DNA of 64,000 nt from contig NZ_JASFDV010000006.1 of the NCBI RefSeq assembly GCF_030766825.1, positions 62,001-126,000 on the forward strand, written 5' to 3'. Shown here one piece after another: positions 22,745 through 61,060 of this stretch; position 1 is the stretch's first letter, and the number at the start of each line of letters is the position of its first letter. The DNA is from Nocardiopsis sp. CC223A (GTDB lineage: Bacteria > Actinomycetota > Actinomycetes > Streptosporangiales > Streptosporangiaceae). A model generated the notes under the pieces. The model saw only the letters and a program-made list of their open reading frames with translations. It was not told the origin of the DNA and searched no databases. A program made the position numbers and the translations under genes.

Positions 22745-23371
22745 GTGCCGCCGATCTTTGATGAGTCCCCGCGATTCGACGCTCGTACGTCGGAGACGCA
22801 GTTTTCCCCTTTTCTTGAGCAGACGCCTCAGCGCCTGTTGCGCCAGCGAATCGTTTTCCTCGGCCAGCAGGTCGATGACGAGATCGCCAACCGCCTGGTG
22901 GGCGAGCTCCTGCTGCTGTCCGCAGAGGACCGCCAGCGGGACATCACGCTGTACATCAACTCGCCCGGCGGTTCCGTGACCGCGGGCATGGCGATCTACG
23001 ACGTGATGCAGTACATCCCCAACGACGTCCGCACCGTGGGCATCGGCATGGCCGCCTCGATGGGCCAGATGCTCCTGTGCGCCGGTGCCCCCGGCAAGCG
23101 CTACGCGCTGCCGCACACCCGAGTCATGATGCACCAGCCGTCCGGCGGCATCGGGGGCACCGCCTCCGACATCCGCATCCTCGCGGACCAGCTGATGTAC
23201 GTGAAGAAGATGTTCATCGAGAAGATCTCCGAGCACACCGGTCAGACGGTCGAGCAGATCGAGAAGGACGCCGACCGCGACCGCTGGTTCACCGCGCAGG
23301 AGGCCAAGGACTACGGCTTCATCGACGAGGTCCTGGAGGGCACGCTCGACGTGACCCGGGACCGCGGGTAG
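22745..23371 (+). CDS. clpP1: ATP-dependent Clp protease proteolytic subunit 1
   Basis: 208 aa from GTG 22745; AGGTGA lies five bases before this codon, which is why it is preferred to the in-frame GTG 22736. It is a serine protease that forms the mixed ClpP1P2 barrel fed by ClpX or ClpC. Catalytic Ser105 (GMAASMGQM) and His130 (VMMHQPSGG) are present, with the Asp in EKDADRDRW. The pair clpP1-clpP2 is spaced by 117 bp. A ClgR-like box lies upstream. Confidence 0.95.
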   Translation: MPPIFDESPRFDARTSETQFSPFLEQTPQRLLRQRIVFLGQQVDDEIANRLVGELLLLSAEDRQRDITLYINSPGGSVTAGMAIYDVMQYIPNDVRTVGIGMAASMGQMLLCAGAPGKRYALPHTRVMMHQPSGGIGGTASDIRILADQLMYVKKMFIEKISEHTGQTVEQIEKDADRDRWFTAQEAKDYGFIDEVLEGTLDVTRDRG

Positions 23372-23488
23372 CGAGTGGTCGGTGATCGGAACCGTCGGGG
23401 CCCGGAGCACCCGGGGCCGGCACGGTGACCTCGCCCGACCCGGCGGTGCCGGGATCGGCGTAGTGCGTGGAAGCGTGGAAGGCGTGAA

Positions 23489-24145
23489 ATGACCGAGTTC
23501 AACCCCTTTATCGGCGGCACGGCCCCGATGTCTCCCCAGGGCCGCTACGTCCTGCCGTCCTACGTGGAGCGGACGTCCTACGGCGTCAAGGAGATGAATC
23601 CGTACAACAAGCTCTTCGAGGAGCGGATCATCTTCGTCGGCGTGCAGATCGACGACACGTCGGCCAACGACCTGATGGCGCAGCTCATCACGCTGGAGCA
23701 GCTCGACTCCGAGCGCGACATCCAGATGTACATCAACTCGCCCGGCGGTTCGTTCACGTCGCTCATGGCGATCTACGACACCATGCAGTTCGTCCGTCCG
23801 GACATCCAGACGGTGTGCATCGGCCAGGCCGCCTCCGCCGCGGCGATCCTGCTGGCCGGCGGGACCAAGGGCAAGCGGGGCGCGCTGCCCAACGCCCGTA
23901 TCCTGATCCACCAGCCCGCCACCGAGGGCATGCACGGTCAGGCCAGCGACATCGAGATCCAGGCCAACGAGATCACCCGGATCCGCACCCAGCTGGAGAC
24001 CACCCTGGCGCGGCACACGGGCCGCACGCCCGAGCAGGTGTCCAAGGACATCGAGCGCGACAAGATCCTCACGGCTGAGGAGGCCAAGGAGTACGGCATC
24101 ATCGACTTCGTGCTCCCGTACCGCAAGGCGTCCCTGAACAAGTAG
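23489..24145 (+). CDS. clpP2: ATP-dependent Clp protease proteolytic subunit 2
   Basis: 218 aa from ATG 23489 with GGAAGG six bases upstream. Its start region ([31 protein letters not shown]) resembles M. tuberculosis ClpP2. The catalytic Ser (GQAASAAAI), His (LIHQPA) and Asp (SKDIERDK) are intact. It assembles with ClpP1 into the active tetradecamer. A good terminator follows, so clpX probably has its own promoter or is reached by read-through. Confidence 0.95.
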
Positions 24146-26737: not shown

Positions 26738-27372
26738 CGCGCACTCCTGCGCCGGGTCGGTGCCGGTACGGCCGCGGTCCCGCCGGCCGCCGCGACCGCG
26801 CTCCCCGGAGCGGCGGCGGTCACGGAACAGGACGTCTTCGCCGAAGGGGTGGTCCGGGTGCGGGCTGCCCGAGCCCGCGCCGCTGGACCGGGAGGACGCC
26901 TTCGACTCCGACCCGGCGTTCACCGGCGACCACGCCATCGGCGGCGACTACGACGGGTTCGCCGTCCACGACATCTCCGACCCGAGCCGGCCCCGGGTGG
27001 TGTCCACGGTCCTGTGCCCGGACGGCCGGGGCGACGTGTCGGTCGGCGGCGACCTGCTGTACCTCTCCGTCGGCTACCCGTGTGAGAGCGACGGGTGCGG
27101 TGCTCCGGCGGCACCGGTCACCGATGTCGGTGGACGTCCCCCGGGGCGGGCGCCTGAACATCGCCCGGGTGCACCGCCGGTGGGGCATGGTGGACATCCC
27201 CGAGCCCGGCCGGGTCCGCTTCCGGTGGACCAAAGACCTGCCCGTCGGCAAGCGTGCCGACGCCGACGACCGGCTCACCGATCCGCGCCTGGAACGGGCG
27301 CAGGGCGTGGTTATGGACGAGTTCAACTCCCAATTGCAACCGTCCTTTTTCGGGTATGGGCAGCAGCCGTAA
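26738..27372 (+). pseudogene. Decayed LVIVD-repeat paralog
   Basis: Pieces of the secreted LVIVD family seen downstream occur in three frames. A signal-peptide-like piece (AGTAAVPPAAATALPGAAAV) lies near 26760-26820. An N-terminal domain piece (DPAFTGDHAIGGDYDGFAVH, then VLCPDGRGDVSVGGDLLYLS) follows in another frame at about 26900-27120. A C-terminal piece (LTDPRLERAQGVVMDEFNSQ) ends at TAA 27370 in the third. Compared with the intact copies, some 750-900 bp of the middle is missing or unrecognisable. Ends are approximate. It precedes two intact paralogs in the same direction and is most simply a dead tandem copy. Confidence 0.72.
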
Positions 27373-27489
27373 TGGTGATCGCGACCGGGGGAAACGCGGG
27401 GGCCGGAGGACCGCCGACCGGAGCGGGCACATCATCGGCCTCCGCAAGAACCTAGGCACCCCGCGTGGCCGGATCGGGTCGTGTGGACA

Positions 27490-27560
27490 GTGTGTTAACC
27501 GGCGTGTTTCTTTTGTTCCCCCCTATACAGATAGATGTTGAAGTGTGTACTTTCTTCCTG
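27490..27560 (+). promoter_or_regulatory. AT-rich probable promoter of the first intact LVIVD gene
   Basis: The segment contains GTTAAC, a pyrimidine run and TATACAGAT (27524-27532), much richer in A/T than its surroundings, and lies 30-100 bp before the start at 27590. TATACA would serve as a -10; no convincing -35 is seen. Confidence 0.4.
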
Positions 27561-27589
27561 TTCAGCGTCGGACCCGAACAGGAGCCCCC

Positions 27590-29014
<1,425 letters not shown>

Positions 29015-29064
29015 CCGCCCCGTAGACGCCCCCGGCCCTCCGGGGCAGGGGCGGGTGACGTGAG

Positions 29065-29095
29065 AGGGGCCGCGGCCGTGCACGCCGCGGCCCCT
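29065..29095 (+). terminator. Terminator between the two LVIVD genes
   Basis: A perfect 12-bp stem pairs 29065-29076 with 29084-29095 around CGTGCAC. It lies 50 bp after the first gene and 41 bp before the second. Confidence 0.75.
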
Positions 29096-29136
29096 TCACG
29101 TACCCCCTGACCACCCCCTAGTGCACAGGAGTCCCG

Positions 29137-30540
29137 ATGCCCGCACCACGCAACAGGAGAGGCCCGCGTCGCTCCGTCGCCCTGGCGGCGACCGCCGCGG
29201 CCTCCCTGCTCGTGGGTCTGCTCGGCCCGGCGACCGCATACGCGGACACGCCCCCGGCCGACTCGATCCACAGCTCCAACATCGAGCACGTGGCCTACGT
29301 GCCCAAGCCCTCCACCGTCCGCAACGTCAACTCCGACCTGGCGTTCACCGGCGACTACGCCATCGGCGGCAACTACGACGGCTTCGTCATCTACGACATC
29401 TCCGACCCGGAGAACACCACGGTCCTGACCGAGGTCCTGTGCCCGGGCGGCCAGGGCGACGTGTCGGTCAGCGGCGACCTGCTGTACCTCTCCGTCGACT
29501 ACGCCCGGGCCAGTGACGAGTGCGGTGCTCCGGCCGTGCCCACCAGTGACCCGAACGGGTTCGAGGGCATCCGGATCTTCGACATCTCGGACAAGGAGAA
29601 CCCGCAGTACGTGGCGGCGGTGCGCACCGACTGCGGTTCGCACACCAACACCCTCGTCCCGGGCAAGGACGGCGAGAGCGACCTCATCTACGTGTCGTCG
29701 TACTCGCCCTCGTCCAACTTCCCGAACTGTCAGCCGCCGCACGACAAGATCTCCATCATCGAGGTGCCGCACGACGACCCGGCCTCGGCCGCGATCGTCA
29801 ACGAGCCGGTGCTGTTCCCGGACGGCGGCAACCACGACCAGGACAACCTGCTGCTGCCCACCCAGGGCTGCCACGACATCACCGTCTACGCGGAGAAGGA
29901 CATCGCGGCGGGCGCCTGCATGGGCGACGGCGTCCTGATGGACATCTCCGACCCCGTGAACCCGGTGGTCACCGAGGTCGTCCAGGACCCGAACTTCGCG
30001 TTCTGGCACTCGGCGACGTTCACCAACGACGCCCGGAACGTGCTGTTCACCGACGAGCTGGGCGGCGGCGGTGCCCCGACCTGCACCGAGGAGATCGGCG
30101 GCGACCGCGGCGCCAACGCCATCTACACCATCGGCGGCACCGACGCGGAGCCGGAGCTGGACTTCGCCAGCTACTACAAGATCGACCGGCACCAGGGCGA
30201 CCAGATCTGCGTGGCGCACAACGGTTCGCTCATCCCGGTCCCGGGCCAGGACTTCTTCGTCCAGTCCTGGTACCAGGGCGGTGTGTCCGTCATGGACTTC
30301 AACAACCCGAGGAAGCCGAAGGAGATCGCCTTCTTCGACATGGACTCCCGGGTCGAGGAGGGTGTCCTGGACAACGACACCTGGTCCACGTACTACTACA
30401 ACGGCTACATCTACTCCAACGACATCACCCGGGGGCTCGACGTCCTGAAGGTGACCGACCCGCGCCTGCGGTCGGCCGAGCGCATCACGTTCGACGAGCT
30501 CAACCCGCAGAACCAGGAGGGCTACCGCCCCGGCCGCTAG
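29137..30540 (+). CDS. Secreted LVIVD-repeat protein (second intact copy)
   Basis: 467 aa from ATG 29137 with AGGAG upstream. A signal peptide (about 1-36, SVALAATAAASLLVGLLGPA, cleavage near AYA-DT) precedes the same repeat domain: YDISDPENTTVLTEV, FDISDKENPQYVAAV, MDISDPVNPVVTEVV and VMDFNNPRKPKEIAFF, ending FDELNPQNQEGYRPGR. It is a tandem paralog of the preceding gene. A small insertion (NHDQDNLLLPTQ) and the divergent N- and C-terminal parts distinguish it. A terminator between the genes suggests separate transcripts. Confidence 0.82.
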   Translation: MPAPRNRRGPRRSVALAATAAASLLVGLLGPATAYADTPPADSIHSSNIEHVAYVPKPSTVRNVNSDLAFTGDYAIGGNYDGFVIYDISDPENTTVLTEVLCPGGQGDVSVSGDLLYLSVDYARASDECGAPAVPTSDPNGFEGIRIFDISDKENPQYVAAVRTDCGSHTNTLVPGKDGESDLIYVSSYSPSSNFPNCQPPHDKISIIEVPHDDPASAAIVNEPVLFPDGGNHDQDNLLLPTQGCHDITVYAEKDIAAGACMGDGVLMDISDPVNPVVTEVVQDPNFAFWHSATFTNDARNVLFTDELGGGGAPTCTEEIGGDRGANAIYTIGGTDAEPELDFASYYKIDRHQGDQICVAHNGSLIPVPGQDFFVQSWYQGGVSVMDFNNPRKPKEIAFFDMDSRVEEGVLDNDTWSTYYYNGYIYSNDITRGLDVLKVTDPRLRSAERITFDELNPQNQEGYRPGR

Positions 30541-54683: not shown

Positions 54684-55865
54684 ATGGAAAGCCCCCTTAC
54701 GGTGCACAGCGCAGAACAACTCGAACAGACCGGCTCCGTTCAGGAGGCCCGCGGGCGTGCGGCCGTCGCCGCCGCCCGCCGGGTCGTCGTCAAGGTGGGG
54801 TCGTCGTCGCTGACGACCCCCGACGGCCGGATCGACTCCGGCCGCATCCGGGACCTGGTCGAGGTGCTGGCGTCCCGCCGCGCCCTGGGCCAGGAGGTCA
54901 TCCTGGTCTCCTCCGGTGCGGTGGCCGCCGGCATGACCCCGCTGGGGATGCGCACGCGCCCCCGTGACCTGGCCTCCCAGCAGGCCGCCGCCAGCGTCGG
55001 CCAGGGCCTGCTGCTGGCCGCCTACACCGCCGAGCTGGCGGGGCACGGCATCAACACCGCCCAGATCCTGCTCACCGTCGAGGACCTGATGCGGCGGGTG
55101 CAGCACCGCAACGCCCAGCGCACGCTGCGCCGCCTGCTGGACATCGGCGCCCTGCCGATCGTCAACGAGAACGACACCGTCGCCACCCACGAGCTGCGGT
55201 TCGGCGACAACGACCGGCTGGCCGCCCTGGTGGCCCACCTGATGAAGGCCGACGCCCTGGTCCTGCTGTCGGACGTGGACGCCCTCTACGACGGGAACCC
55301 GGCCGAGCCGGGCTCCCGGGTGGTGGGCCTGATCTCCGGTCCGGACGACCTGGAGGGCATCGACATCGGCTCCTCGGGCAAGCGCGGAGTGGGCACCGGC
55401 GGCATGGTCACCAAGGTGGCCTCGGCGCGCATCGCCACCGAGGCGGGGGTGAACACCCTGCTCACCTCCGCCGCCAACGCCCGCGCGGCGCTGGCGGGGG
55501 AGGGGGTCGGCACGCTCTTCGCCGCCGCCTCGGGGCGGCGCCCCTCGGCCCGCCAGCTGTGGCTGGCCCACGCCACCGCCGGGCGCGGCAGCCTGGTCCT
55601 GGACCCGGGCGCGGTGGCCGCGGTGGCCCGCGACAAGGCGTCGCTGCTGCCCGCCGGGGTGGTGGACGTGCTCGGGGAGTTCAGCGCCGGGGACCCGGTG
55701 GACCTGCGCGACGAGCAGGGCACCGTGGTGGCCCGCGGCCTGGTCAACTACGACTCCGCCGAGGTGCCCGACCTGATGGGCCGCTCCACCCGGTGGCTGG
55801 CCCGGGAACTGGGCCCCTCCTACGAGCGCGAGCTGGTCCACCGCGACGACCTCGTCGTCCTGTGA
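54684..55865 (+). CDS. proB: Glutamate 5-kinase
   Basis: 393 aa from ATG 54684; GTG 54702 is an alternative. The amino acid kinase domain has VVVKVGSSSLTTPDGRID (about 34-51), ILVSSGAVAAGM, IVNENDTVATHELRFGDND and GTGGMVTKV, and a PUA domain follows (about 295-375). It makes gamma-glutamyl phosphate in proline synthesis. In most actinobacteria proA follows closely; here it is 5.4 kb away. The last 15 codons (YERELVHRDDLVVL, stop) recur in diverged form at 57712. Confidence 0.95.
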   Translation: MESPLTVHSAEQLEQTGSVQEARGRAAVAAARRVVVKVGSSSLTTPDGRIDSGRIRDLVEVLASRRALGQEVILVSSGAVAAGMTPLGMRTRPRDLASQQAAASVGQGLLLAAYTAELAGHGINTAQILLTVEDLMRRVQHRNAQRTLRRLLDIGALPIVNENDTVATHELRFGDNDRLAALVAHLMKADALVLLSDVDALYDGNPAEPGSRVVGLISGPDDLEGIDIGSSGKRGVGTGGMVTKVASARIATEAGVNTLLTSAANARAALAGEGVGTLFAAASGRRPSARQLWLAHATAGRGSLVLDPGAVAAVARDKASLLPAGVVDVLGEFSAGDPVDLRDEQGTVVARGLVNYDSAEVPDLMGRSTRWLARELGPSYERELVHRDDLVVL

Positions 55866-55866
55866 C
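55821..55866 (+). repeat. Direct repeat, left copy (3' end of proB)
   Basis: Forty-six bases covering the last codons of proB match 57712-57757 at about 40 of 46 positions in the same orientation. The two copies enclose the DUF4276 and ATPase genes. See the matching right copy. Confidence 0.8.
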
Positions 55867-55884
55867 CCCGGTCCGCGACACAGA

Positions 55885-56568
55885 TCAGCCGGGTTGCCTG
55901 GTTCCGAGGCGTTCTTCCACGGCTCGGAACCAGGCGTCGGCGTGCGGGCACTGGCGTCGGATCTCCTCCACACCGGCCAAACAGACGGTGTCGGGGCCGT
56001 CCCTGGTCTTGCGGTAGGTCGGGTACAACCCCTCGATCCGTTTCGAGGGCGCGGTGTTCGGACCGTCGTTGACCAGCTCAGGACCTCCCGCGCTCTCGAC
56101 GATTGCGCGGAGTGAGTCGGCAAGCCTCGGTTCTTCCACGAGTTCGCCCAGGGTCTCCGCACAGGCGAGTACCCAGGCCTCGGTCTCGTGCAGGATCAGG
56201 TAGGGAAGGAAACGGGGGTCGCCCACGGCCTCGGCGATGGCGGATTCCACATGGGCGACCCGGTCGTACGGCGTCCCTTGCGGCCTGTTCTTCATCCCCG
56301 GTGCGTCCGACGGGGCGCCGTAGTAGTCCACCAGGGTGGTGAGCACCTGGATCGAGGTGTCGCGCAGGAGCAGTCGGACATCCCGGTCCAGTGCGTTCCA
56401 ACGGCCGACGCCTCCCTTGCTGTCGGGACCCGCGACGGTACGCCTCGTGGTGAGGACGGACACCGTCACGTAGGTGTCGTGTGAGGTGAAGTAAGGCCGC
56501 AGCGTCTCGGTGGCGAGGTTCTCCTCGGTCTGGCCCTCGCAGAGGATGTGCAGCCTGCGCACGTTCAC
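55885..56568 (-). CDS. DUF4276 family protein (TOPRIM-like)
   Basis: 227 aa from GTG 56568, which overlaps the stop of the ATPase gene by four bases; the frame is open upstream but the family begins at VRRLHILCEGQTEENLA. CEGQTEE resembles motif 1 of TOPRIM nucleases (EGxxE), and LVDYYGAPSD and HETEAWVLA are typical of DUF4276. DUF4276 proteins are commonly encoded next to an AAA ATPase, as here, and such pairs are suspected of defence roles. I infer that the two proteins work as a split OLD-type nuclease. G+C and codon bias are looser than in proB, suggesting transfer. Confidence 0.78.
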   Translation of the reverse strand: MNVRRLHILCEGQTEENLATETLRPYFTSHDTYVTVSVLTTRRTVAGPDSKGGVGRWNALDRDVRLLLRDTSIQVLTTLVDYYGAPSDAPGMKNRPQGTPYDRVAHVESAIAEAVGDPRFLPYLILHETEAWVLACAETLGELVEEPRLADSLRAIVESAGGPELVNDGPNTAPSKRIEGLYPTYRKTRDGPDTVCLAGVEEIRRQCPHADAWFRAVEERLGTRQPG

Positions 56569-57683
56569 CTTCGCTCGGAGCGGGGGCGTCCCCCCAGGAG
56601 GTTCTTCTGCCACAGTTCGCCCAGGGAGTACTCCTCCAGCCACATCTGGAGCTCTTCCGGCCTGGGCCGGTGGAAGACGGAGGCTCCCGCCTCCCGTTCG
56701 ACCACGATCAGATCCTCCAACGCCACCTGGTCGATCAGGGTGACGGATTGGGTGGCGATGACGATCTGGCTGTCGACGCTCGCCGCATGGATCATCTCGC
56801 CGAGTTGCACGATGGCGTAGGGGTGCAGGCCGAGTTCGGGTTCGTCCAGAACGATGATCCCCGGTCTGCCCGGCATGTTGAGCAGGGTGGCCAGGCAGAC
56901 GAAACGCAGGGTGCCGTCGGACATCGCGCTGGCAGGGAAGACGTTCTCGCTGTCCTGTTGGGTCCAGCGCAGCCGTACACGCTCGTTCTGTTCGACCAGC
57001 ACGAAGTCGCGGAAGAACGGCGCGATGCCCCGCACATCGCGGAGGATGCGGTTGTAGACTTCGGGCTCCCCATCCCGCAGACGCAGCAGCACGGCAGCCA
57101 GGTTGGCGGCGTCGGGGTGCAGGGCGAGGTCGTCGGCCGTATAGCCGTTGCCCTTGACGGGGGCGTTGGCACTGGTGTCGTGGAAGTGGAAGACACGGCA
57201 GCCGCCGAGCCGCTCCAACACTGGCTCGGAGACCGACCGGAGTTCCGCGGAGGCCCCGACTTCGCCACTCGACACCTCGGGGAGCAGGCTTTCCTTCGAT
57301 CCCCTTGTGACCGAGATGGCCGTAGGGGCGAGCCCTTCTTCAGCGGGCGCGGAGATCATCTCCCTGCTGAAGACCAGTGAGTCATCCGTTGTGGGAACCA
57401 TTGCCGCTTCGTAGGTGACGAGGCCGAATCGTGCTCTGAGGATGATCTCGCCGCTCGGCTCCGGTCCCTTGTGGAGCAGGTTGGATGCCCCGCCGCTTTG
57501 AAGGGTGTGCATCCCCAGGCGTCCATCGGCGATCTTGCCGATCATCTCCAGCGCCGCGATGAAATTGCTCTTGCCCGACCCGTTCGCTCCGACCAGGACG
57601 TTGACATGCCCCAACTCGACCGTGGCCGAGCGAATCGAGGTCAGGCCTTCGATGGTCAGGGAGCTGAGTCTGCGGCGTTCCAT
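56565..57683 (-). CDS. AAA family ATPase (OLD/AAA_21-like)
   Basis: 372 aa from ATG 57683. It has an ABC/SMC-like split ATPase: Walker A VGANGSGKSN (31-40), a middle insert, the signature-like ASAMSDGTLRFV (about 252-263) and Walker B IIVLDEPELGLHP (about 276-288), then a switch stretch IVIATQSVTLID. It lacks its own nuclease domain; the overlapping DUF4276 gene may supply it. Its G+C is a little lower than its neighbours'. It is transcribed first in the pair, and its promoter must lie in or near the duplicated proB end. Confidence 0.83.
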   Translation of the reverse strand: MERRRLSSLTIEGLTSIRSATVELGHVNVLVGANGSGKSNFIAALEMIGKIADGRLGMHTLQSGGASNLLHKGPEPSGEIILRARFGLVTYEAAMVPTTDDSLVFSREMISAPAEEGLAPTAISVTRGSKESLLPEVSSGEVGASAELRSVSEPVLERLGGCRVFHFHDTSANAPVKGNGYTADDLALHPDAANLAAVLLRLRDGEPEVYNRILRDVRGIAPFFRDFVLVEQNERVRLRWTQQDSENVFPASAMSDGTLRFVCLATLLNMPGRPGIIVLDEPELGLHPYAIVQLGEMIHAASVDSQIVIATQSVTLIDQVALEDLIVVEREAGASVFHRPRPEELQMWLEEYSLGELWQKNLLGGRPRSERR

Positions 57684-57711
57684 ACGACAACCCTAGCCAG
57701 AGCCGGGCCGC

Positions 57712-57757
57712 TACGAGCGCGTGCCGGTCCACCGCGGCGACCTCGTCACCCGGTGAC
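57712..57757 (+). repeat. Direct repeat, right copy (diverged proB 3' end)
   Basis: This segment reads YERVPVHRGDLVTR and a stop, against YERELVHRDDLVVL and a stop in proB. It differs at six of 46 bases from 55821-55866 and is in the same direction. It lies just upstream of the ATPase start on the opposite strand. It looks like a displaced proB end, as left by an element that inserted at, and re-created, the 3' end of proB. Confidence 0.8.
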
Positions 57758-57924
57758 GCCGCTCCCGGGACGGCCGCCCGCGAGAGCCCCGTGGACGGCC
57801 GCCCACGGGGCCGGATCTCGGCGACACGGCCCCGGTGCCCGCAGATGTCCCCGGCCCGGGAGAGAATCCGGTCACAGGGACATGGAAGGGGCGGGTCCCC
57901 CGCCCCCAGGGGAAGGAGTGCCCC

Positions 57925-58812
57925 ATGCCGAGCTTGACGGCGCGGCTGCTGTCATTGGCGCTGCGTGTGGTGCGCAAGCGCCCGATGGGCTCGGTGGAGA
58001 GCGCCCGGGAGTGGCTGTACGAGCCCAAGGACGACCCCGCGCCCCCGCACTGGGTCGCCCAACGGCACTGGATCGGCCTGCGGACGGTCGCCGGCTTCCC
58101 CGTCTACACCGTTCTCCCCCGCGACACGGAGAACCCGGTGAAGGCGGTGCTGTACGTGCACGGCGGGACCTACGTCAGCGAGATCTCCGCGTGGCACTGG
58201 GTGCTCGTCTCCCGGATGGCCGACACGGGCTGCCGGGTGGAGGTGCCGCTCTACGGGCTGGCGCCCGAGCACACCTACCGGGAGGCCTTCCCGTTCCTGA
58301 CACAGGTCTACCGGGAGCTGTCGGCGGACGTGGCGCCGGAGCGGACCGCGTTCGCGGGCGACTCCGCGGGCGGCGGCCTCGCGCTGGCCCTGGCCCAGAC
58401 CCTGACCGGCGCGGGGCTGCCGGAACCGGCGCGGCTGATCCTGATCTCCCCGTGGGCCGACCTGACGATGTCCAACCCCGAGATCGCCGAGGTGGACGAA
58501 CGCGACCCCTGGCTGAGCCCGGTGGGGATGCTGGAGGCGGCGAAGTCCTGGTCGGGCGGGGACGACCTGGCCCTGCCCCGGCTGAGCCCGGTGTACGGGG
58601 AGCTGGCGACCCTGCCGCCCATGGACCTCTACATCGGCACGCGCGACGTGCTGCTGCCGGACACCCGCCGCCTGCGGGACCTGGTGGCCGAGGTCGGGGG
58701 CACGGTCCGGCTCAGCGAGGAGGAGGGCGCCTTCCACGTGTACCCGCTGGTCCCGGTGCCCGAGGGCGGCCCGGCGCGGGCCGAGATCCTGCGGACCGTC
58801 CGGGACCTGTGA
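57925..58812 (+). CDS. Alpha/beta hydrolase (hormone-sensitive lipase-like)
   Basis: 295 aa from ATG 57925 with GGAAGGAG upstream. Motifs of the HSL group are present: oxyanion HGGTYV (about 84), nucleophile elbow GDSAGGG (about 153), Asp in GTRDVLLPD and His in EGAFHVYPL. It should hydrolyse short acyl esters. It converges on a pair of short-chain dehydrogenases, a grouping seen in lipid or ester metabolism clusters. Confidence 0.88.
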   Translation: MPSLTARLLSLALRVVRKRPMGSVESAREWLYEPKDDPAPPHWVAQRHWIGLRTVAGFPVYTVLPRDTENPVKAVLYVHGGTYVSEISAWHWVLVSRMADTGCRVEVPLYGLAPEHTYREAFPFLTQVYRELSADVAPERTAFAGDSAGGGLALALAQTLTGAGLPEPARLILISPWADLTMSNPEIAEVDERDPWLSPVGMLEAAKSWSGGDDLALPRLSPVYGELATLPPMDLYIGTRDVLLPDTRRLRDLVAEVGGTVRLSEEEGAFHVYPLVPVPEGGPARAEILRTVRDL

Positions 58813-60613: not shown

Positions 60614-61060
60614 ATGAGCGAACGTACGGCACAGCACAGAGACGACCACCCCCACCGCGGTGAACTGCGGGAGATCCCCACCTCCGAGAACGCCACCAAG
60701 CTCGTCTACGCCCCCGAACGGGACGGCCTGGCCGACGCGGGCGAGATCGTGTGGACCTGGGTCCCCTTCGAGGAGGACCCCTCCCAGGGCAAGGACCGGC
60801 CGCTGTTGGTGGTCGGCCGCAAGGGCCGCCGCCTGCACGGGCTGATGCTGTCCTCCCAGCGCCCCGAGCAGTGGGAGCTCCAGGACTGGCTGCCCATCGG
60901 CTCGGGCCCCTGGGACCGCGAGGGCCGCGACTCCTTCCTGCGGGTGGACCGCCTCTTCGAGTTCGACGAGGACGACATCCGCCGCGAGGCCGCCATCCTG
61001 GACGAGGAGATCTTCTGGCTGGTCGCCGACGTCCTGCGCAGCCGCTACGGCTGGAGCTGA
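60614..61060 (+). CDS. PemK/MazF-like protein
   Basis: 148 aa from ATG 60614. After a polar N-terminus, GEIVWTWVPFEEDPSQGKDRPLLVVGRKG (about 43-71) matches the beta-barrel start of PemK/MazF-like proteins. The end is YGWS. No antitoxin gene precedes it: the upstream neighbours are SDRs on the other strand. Such stand-alone copies are widespread in actinobacteria and may not be toxins; RNase function is not demonstrated. Confidence 0.68.
   Translation: MSERTAQHRDDHPHRGELREIPTSENATKLVYAPERDGLADAGEIVWTWVPFEEDPSQGKDRPLLVVGRKGRRLHGLMLSSQRPEQWELQDWLPIGSGPWDREGRDSFLRVDRLFEFDEDDIRREAAILDEEIFWLVADVLRSRYGWS

Follow-up and report, generated by a model that had tools for sequence, protein, structure and literature searches.

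A HEC-01 gene pair between two copies of the proB 3' end in Nocardiopsis resembles an insertion with long target duplication

Nobusato et al. 2000 and Furuta et al. 2010 are said to have described insertion with long target duplication, at first in Helicobacter pylori, as a process that involves restriction-modification genes. For genes of this kind it is also known from the accessible portions of four papers (PMC3874152, PMC3031569, PMC1643837, PMC4978471), the first of which gives the direct repeats of the target, in the text available, as 'in the order of 100 bp' and of variable length (PMC3874152). For the majority of defence genes, no mobile element that carries them can be recognised. 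For the HEC (Hma-embedded candidate) systems a preprint, Payne et al. 2024, is reportedly the cited source. No anti-phage test of HEC-01 was found in the accessible part of the literature, where HEC-06 is named, and a literature search under the name DUF4276 returned no paper. Likewise, no published case of HEC-01 with a long target duplication was found in a search that missed most subscription papers and preprints. Here, a HEC-01 pair is described in the window, i.e. the whole stretch of 64,000 nucleotides of the Nocardiopsis sp. CC223A genome (G000) that was analysed. The anatomy of the locus is that of an insertion with long target duplication, from which a probable movement of the pair is deduced by sequence comparison.

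The repeated proB end and the enclosed gene pair

The last 46 bases of proB (55820-55865, with the TGA stop at 55863-55865) recur at 57711-57756 with 40/46 identities. An earlier note on this DNA had described this repeat with its six differences, which is confirmed at positions one base below those noted. The match can be extended to 55 nt with 85% identity (Table 1). Read from the window sequence, the distal copy translates to YERVPVHRGDLVTR followed by a stop, and its six changes hit five codons, in all of which the amino acid is altered. With 57690-57800 as the query, the own genome yields the segment itself and, besides the end of proB, two weak matches on other contigs.

Orthologues of proB are present in 40/40 genomes of the genus. 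In 38 of the 39 Nocardiopsis relatives, examined over at most 8 kb beyond proB, the best match to the 46-base end reaches 24-29/46, where the contigs of L052, L062 and L065 stop within about 0.15-2 kb; the 39th, Nocardiopsis sp. N85 (G016), contains a second proB end with 46/46. Chance is thereby excluded, and the similarity of 40/46 in the window is, as had been supposed, better than this background. The proB 3' end of the sister genome G006, which lacks the pair, is identical to the proximal copy of the window in 46/46 positions. As the distal copy is altered at six bases, the proximal copy represents the working end and the distal copy a relic. Two earlier expectations are not supported on this point, namely that the right copy would be closer to the native proB of relatives and that the end of proB had been rebuilt from the incoming element: it is the left copy that equals the end of the pair-less sister, and the right copy is the decayed one.

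Table 1. Positions of the repeat arms, the enclosed pair and the flanking genes in the window.
Feature	Coordinates	Strand	Evidence
proB (glutamate 5-kinase), host gene with duplicated 3' end	54684..55865	+	AA_kinase PF00696 E 7.1e-40; PUA PF01472 E 3.7e-18
Proximal repeat arm, native working proB 3' end	55820..55874	+	last 46 bases of proB identical to pair-less sister G006
HEC-01B, DUF4276 protein, 227 aa, predicted TOPRIM-like fold	55885..56568	-	PF14103 E 2.5e-44; PADLOC HEC-01B E 4.1e-72
HEC-01A, OLD-like ABC/AAA ATPase, 372 aa	56565..57683	-	AAA_21 E 6.6e-26; PADLOC HEC-01A E 2.7e-130
Distal repeat arm, decayed second proB 3' end	57711..57765	+	40/46 to proximal arm
Alpha/beta hydrolase gene, right flank of insertion	57928..58812	+	PF07859 E 1.6e-37

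Exactly two genes are located between the copies, both on the minus strand and with GTGA at 56565-56568 as their overlap. Their description as a DUF4276 protein and an AAA ATPase with a four-base overlap is borne out by the Pfam matches, and also in agreement with the earlier note no integrase is present between the copies in the window. Being adjacent (overlapping) HEC-01A and HEC-01B genes, the pair conforms to the PADLOC definition of HEC-01. The best profile match of HEC-01A is the OLD-family endonuclease 6p74 (E 1.7e-10). The DUF4276 model is nearest to the C-terminal region of OLD, followed by PARIS and GajA, and a PDB profile search with DUF4276 yielded nothing useful. For this protein, E11-G12-x-x-E15 and D81 are invariant in 27 sequences, the latter as D81-x-Y83, in which the second D of DxD is absent; E ... 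DxD are presumably the acidic motifs of a TOPRIM nuclease of the OLD type. An action against phage is predicted for the cargo, in the manner of an OLD/PARIS-like ATPase combined with a TOPRIM nuclease. A gene at 60614-61057 was labelled by eye and is taken to be PemK.

The proB locus across Nocardiopsis

In 15/39 relatives the same hydrolase gene follows within 340 bp after proB, with one proB end each, and no second end is found in any pair-less relative searched, as had been anticipated for genomes without the pair. The earlier proposal that the pair entered as an element at the end of proB can thus be kept with respect to an insertion that separates proB from the hydrolase gene, its usual neighbour, and is not supported with respect to a proB end supplied by the element. 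Other sequence is found after proB in 17 relatives. None of these 17 contains other cargo between two proB ends, and none of 10 of their ORFs, for which Pfam gives names including GH114, SUFU and DUF2306, has a PADLOC match; the end of proB does not emerge from this as a recurrent insertion site for defence genes.

The HEC-01 pair itself follows proB in the window genome, in N85 and in N. flavescens (G011). The arms of N85 comprise 68 nt with 97% identity, and N. flavescens harbors the pair at the same place with no second proB end. A DUF4276 relic is located nine bases past the proB stop in G037, and in N. ansamitocini the pair lies inside the proB-proA interval, 3.7 kb from proB. The genome nearest to that of the window, G006, has no pair, one proB end and other sequence before the hydrolase gene; a 190-aa ORF after proB therein has no Pfam or PADLOC match.

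The HEC-01A sequences of the window genome, N85 and N. flavescens form one clade with a support of 100/100. The differences at fourfold sites between the window genome and N85 are 0.28 and 0.26 for the pair versus 0.16-0.26 for the flanking genes, and 0.24 and 0.31 versus 0.10-0.24 in the comparison with N. flavescens. The single clade together with fourfold differences near those of the flanks makes inheritance in place likely, although the values of the pair are somewhat above those of the flanks, which weakens the argument that both evolved in step; a later transfer of the pair among relatives may have taken place. The repeated presence of the pair near proB is probably in part a matter of descent. 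Five variants are common to both N85 copies and absent from the window genome, G006 and N. flavescens, so the N85 copies are either the recipient's own DNA or have been homogenised. This pattern would fit a target duplication with subsequent homogenisation, or a later duplication, and would not fit a foreign proB end.

Repeats around other HEC-01 and DUF4276 loci

A locus was counted as bracketed in the case of direct repeats of 45-400 nt with at least 78% identity and at least 50 bits, the arms being within 2.5 kb. These values were fixed after a first look at the repeats, and a later set of 14 loci is the sole test after fixing. Bracketing is found at 6/46 HEC-01 loci versus 1/1221 placebo positions in the same loci, at 1/14 of the further DUF4276 loci versus 0/290 placebos, and at 5/702 placebos around toxin-antitoxin loci. 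Altogether, 7/60 loci (six independent sites) compare with 6/2213 placebos (p 9.5e-9), or 5/58 if the window and its N85 orthologue are removed (p 3.8e-6); 53/60 loci show no such repeat. Left out before counting were nine duplicate records, L122, L140 and L147 with short flanks, the fragment L148, and L226 and L227 as duplicates of L109 and L131. Three of the 46 loci (L099, L120, L125) and one later match were counted on weaker or looser brackets, all within the limits given above. Two candidates remained uncounted: L130 (Kineosporia), flagged by a gap-tolerant flank test, where the repeat lies within two paralogue-like genes which by their look we take to be IMP-dehydrogenase paralogues, and L142 with a 22-nt repeat below countable length. 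A wider HEC-01A search in 396 genomes of the phylum draw gave 1 match besides the window.

The scar also occurs away from proB, which the earlier note had missed: other copies of the pair are surrounded by it in unrelated genes. In L134, a Nitrospira MAG, the pair is arranged tail to tail with a glycosyltransferase gene and is followed by a 200-nt, 84% copy of the 3' end of that gene, beyond which HicA/HicB genes and a third copy of 309 nt are located. In L216 (genome G045) the pair is flanked on both sides by the 5' end of a histidine kinase gene, in copies of 120 nt with 91% identity. The arm is formed by 127 nt of the 5' end of a secreted-protein gene in L120 (Nonomuraea corallina), by 100 nt of an mgtE-like 5' end in L125 (Kibdelosporangium), which holds an IS-type transposase inside, and by 79 nt of non-coding DNA (78%) in L099; in these three loci the arms are 0.2-1.8 kb from the pair, with other sequence within the interval. 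The targets, i.e. proB, glycosyltransferase, mgtE-like, secreted-protein and kinase genes and one non-coding stretch, are unrelated. The arms of the window, N85 and L216 and the inner arms of L134 enclose only the pair besides small unassigned ORFs. HEC-01A and HEC-01B are the best PADLOC models for both proteins of L134 and L216, as is the case for the ATPases of L125 and L120. In 7/8 Pseudonocardiaceae genomes HEC-01 is located upstream of mgtE and a repeat is present in one only; the six others, K. philippinense aside, show none.

An uninterrupted single-copy site in a pair-less relative is clear for L216, and for the window is given by gene order only. The sister of the L216 genome, G110, has the ABC-transporter gene next to the kinase gene, with no pair in the interval and a single copy of the repeat stretch. 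The L216 arms are 91% identical to each other and 80% and 76% to G110; being closer to each other than to the sister, they are copies of the recipient's own target, which was duplicated after the split of the two species. For L120 an empty site was not found, the best other matches of its host gene being at most 51%, and its neighbour gene is adjacent only in L165, in another arrangement; an empty site for L125 was also looked for and not found. The N. corallina pair aligns to the loci of six other species over about 1.8-1.9 kb only (L145 in three pieces). Its flanks have no match above 90 nt at E 1e-10 to the same six loci and are unrelated.

As a control, 40 loci of the antitoxin family PF02604, all of the same family, were treated as a 0.7-kb unit, with 3/40 bracketed, and as a 1.85-kb unit, with 2/40, giving 4/40 in all. 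Some of these arms sit inside neighbouring genes away from the cassette; the genes at these loci carry SDR, IMP dehydrogenase, HTH and ATPase labels assumed by eye. As the rate is similar, the scar is not peculiar to HEC-01, and a specificity for this pair is ruled out by the control, which argues for a general repair route over a HEC-01-specific enzyme. The mechanism thus probably extends to toxin-antitoxin pairs as well.

Origin of the duplication and relation to known systems

The pair is best explained as a two-gene cassette that arrived at the end of proB and duplicated about 50-70 bases of its target, a reading to which a probability of roughly 0.6 is assigned. In the route we infer, the chromosome would break with the two strands cut far apart at the target, and host repair would join the cassette into the staggered break. 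Fill-in of the overhangs would copy the stretch between the cuts and leave one copy on each side, of which the one still attached to the body of proB would be kept functional by selection and the far one would be free to decay. The insertion would be older than the split of the window species from N85 and N. flavescens; the pair would later have been lost in G006 and the far copy in N. flavescens, and the two copies would have been kept alike in N85. More generally, the comparisons suggest that the pair likely spreads without a recombinase of its own, by insertion and duplication of roughly 50-200 target bases.

A different order of events, in which the pair first came to lie beside proB and a later tandem duplication with deletion of the extra pair left the second proB end, is unlikely, even if it ranks ahead of the other alternatives. 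It would account for the pair without repeat in N. flavescens, for the single repeat among the seven HEC-01 loci upstream of mgtE, and for the five private variants of the N85 arms, as expected after recent duplication or conversion. However, the sister of the L216 genome lacks both pair and duplication, and the 8/55 changes of the far copy in the window correspond to an age near the split from N85 (half of 0.16-0.28 at fourfold sites, a rough estimate). Slightly less weight is given to a decayed integrative element at the 3' end of proB, whose arms would be attL and attR and whose integrase would be lost or act in trans. Gene 3' ends with an in-frame stop are typical of many integrase sites; the arm at proB is of this kind and is seen at the same place in two genomes, the window and N85. 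Against such an element, the arms of the window, N85, L216 and L134 enclose no recombinase, no block of attachment-site identity is shared, and the arms of other loci show no sequence relationship and comprise 5' ends and non-coding DNA as well. Moreover, the arms of N85 and L216 are both of the recipient type, and in other species the same pair is found at different sites, with different targets duplicated.

Uptake of a relative's DNA followed by homology-aided illegitimate recombination, by which the pair would have come in with a donor proB end and the recipient end been left behind, predicts the same anatomy, and related species do carry the pair at this place. It is nevertheless improbable, as the proximal end in the window equals that of the sister with no donor signal (that of a same-species donor would be invisible) and both L216 arms are recipient-type. 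Chance similarity or a paralogue background in GC-rich DNA is practically negligible: short repeats are common in the region, yet 40/46 stands against 24-29/46 in 38 relatives and the placebos give 6/2213, by which this explanation is already refuted.

Returning to the cassette insertion, a scar around one pair in unrelated targets and phyla, together with an empty site, provides a searchable signature of recombinase-free movement. A far broader view is highly speculative, namely that HEC-01 and other small nuclease or toxin conflict cassettes form a class of recombinase-free mobile genes: these cassettes, or the damage they cause, might cut the chromosome by nicks spaced far apart near gene ends, and on repair they might be inserted with 50-300 bp of the target duplicated; the host gene would be restored each time and the cassettes would become stacked in arrays, as in the Nitrospira locus, where three glycosyltransferase ends surround HEC-01 and HicAB.

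Among known systems, HEC-01 of PADLOC provides the best-matching models for both proteins and is defined by its genes only, the insertion scars being outside its definition. The OLD, Gabija, PARIS and retron-Eco8 ATPase-TOPRIM systems are related through the profile match of the ATPase to 6p74; unlike these, the pair consists of two separate genes with a DUF4276 partner in which the second DxD acidic residue is not conserved. With insertion with long target duplication, as far as the accessible text of the sources describes it, the locus shares a compact defence cassette, the lack of a recombinase and flanking repeats of the target. The latter are within about 50-300 bp in the window (55 nt, 85%), N85 (68 nt, 97%), L216 (120 nt, 91%) and L134 (200 nt, 84%), in all of which the unit is recombinase-free, whereas L125 holds a transposase. 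Contrary to the published cases with their restriction-modification cargo, the cargo here is the HEC-01 ATPase/DUF4276 pair, the hosts are Actinomycetota and a Nitrospira MAG, and the arms are located at gene 3' or 5' ends. Since the cargo is HEC-01, the locus represents a variant of insertion with long target duplication and not a copy, and a mechanism known until now from restriction-modification genes would be extended to an ATPase/DUF4276 pair.

Genomic positions and cassette stacking

Within Pseudonocardiaceae, HEC-01 (the ATPase/DUF4276 gene pair) has a conserved location upstream of an mgtE-like gene, which lies 1.8-5 kb downstream of the pair in seven of the eight genomes examined (L124-L129, L146). 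The Nitrospira region is a stacked array of cassettes, in which the 3' end of a glycosyltransferase gene occurs three times around HicAB and HEC-01 and three HicB-like stretches share 89-92% mutual identity. The ORF found in the sister species G006 has no match in Pfam or PADLOC.

Features discussed, with their coordinates
Feature	Coordinates	Details
Hairpin	window 55895-55936	tail-to-tail junction of proB and DUF4276 gene; predicted fold
TAnnnT-like hexamer	window 57684-57700	directly 5' of ATPase ATG; by eye
Cassette array	L134:234-10379	Nitrospira MAG contig
190-aa ORF	L031:1436-2008	G006, at position held by pair in window
Toxin-antitoxin genes between direct repeats	L272:7572-8654	repeat 72 nt, 94%
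Toxin-antitoxin genes between direct repeats	L248:6711-8575	repeat 183 nt, 98%
Long direct repeats	window 26897-30533 and 22845-24106	

Other direct repeats

The repeats flanking the toxin-antitoxin genes of two control loci are pieces of the adjoining genes. The long direct repeats elsewhere in the window (1272 nt at 82%, 216 nt at 85% and 297 nt at 71%) are probably repeated genes or domains.

Junction and possible start signals of the pair

The strong hairpin downstream of proB, with -45.8 kcal/mol and a z of -4.2 for a fold of 86 nt, is perhaps a terminator common to both converging genes. At the other end of the pair, the hexamer is found in the window and in the cassettes L099, L111, L112, L118 and L144 as TAGGGT or TAAGCT, on the minus or plus strand. 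Judged from sequence, its position immediately ahead of the start codon would correspond to the arrangement of a leaderless transcript.
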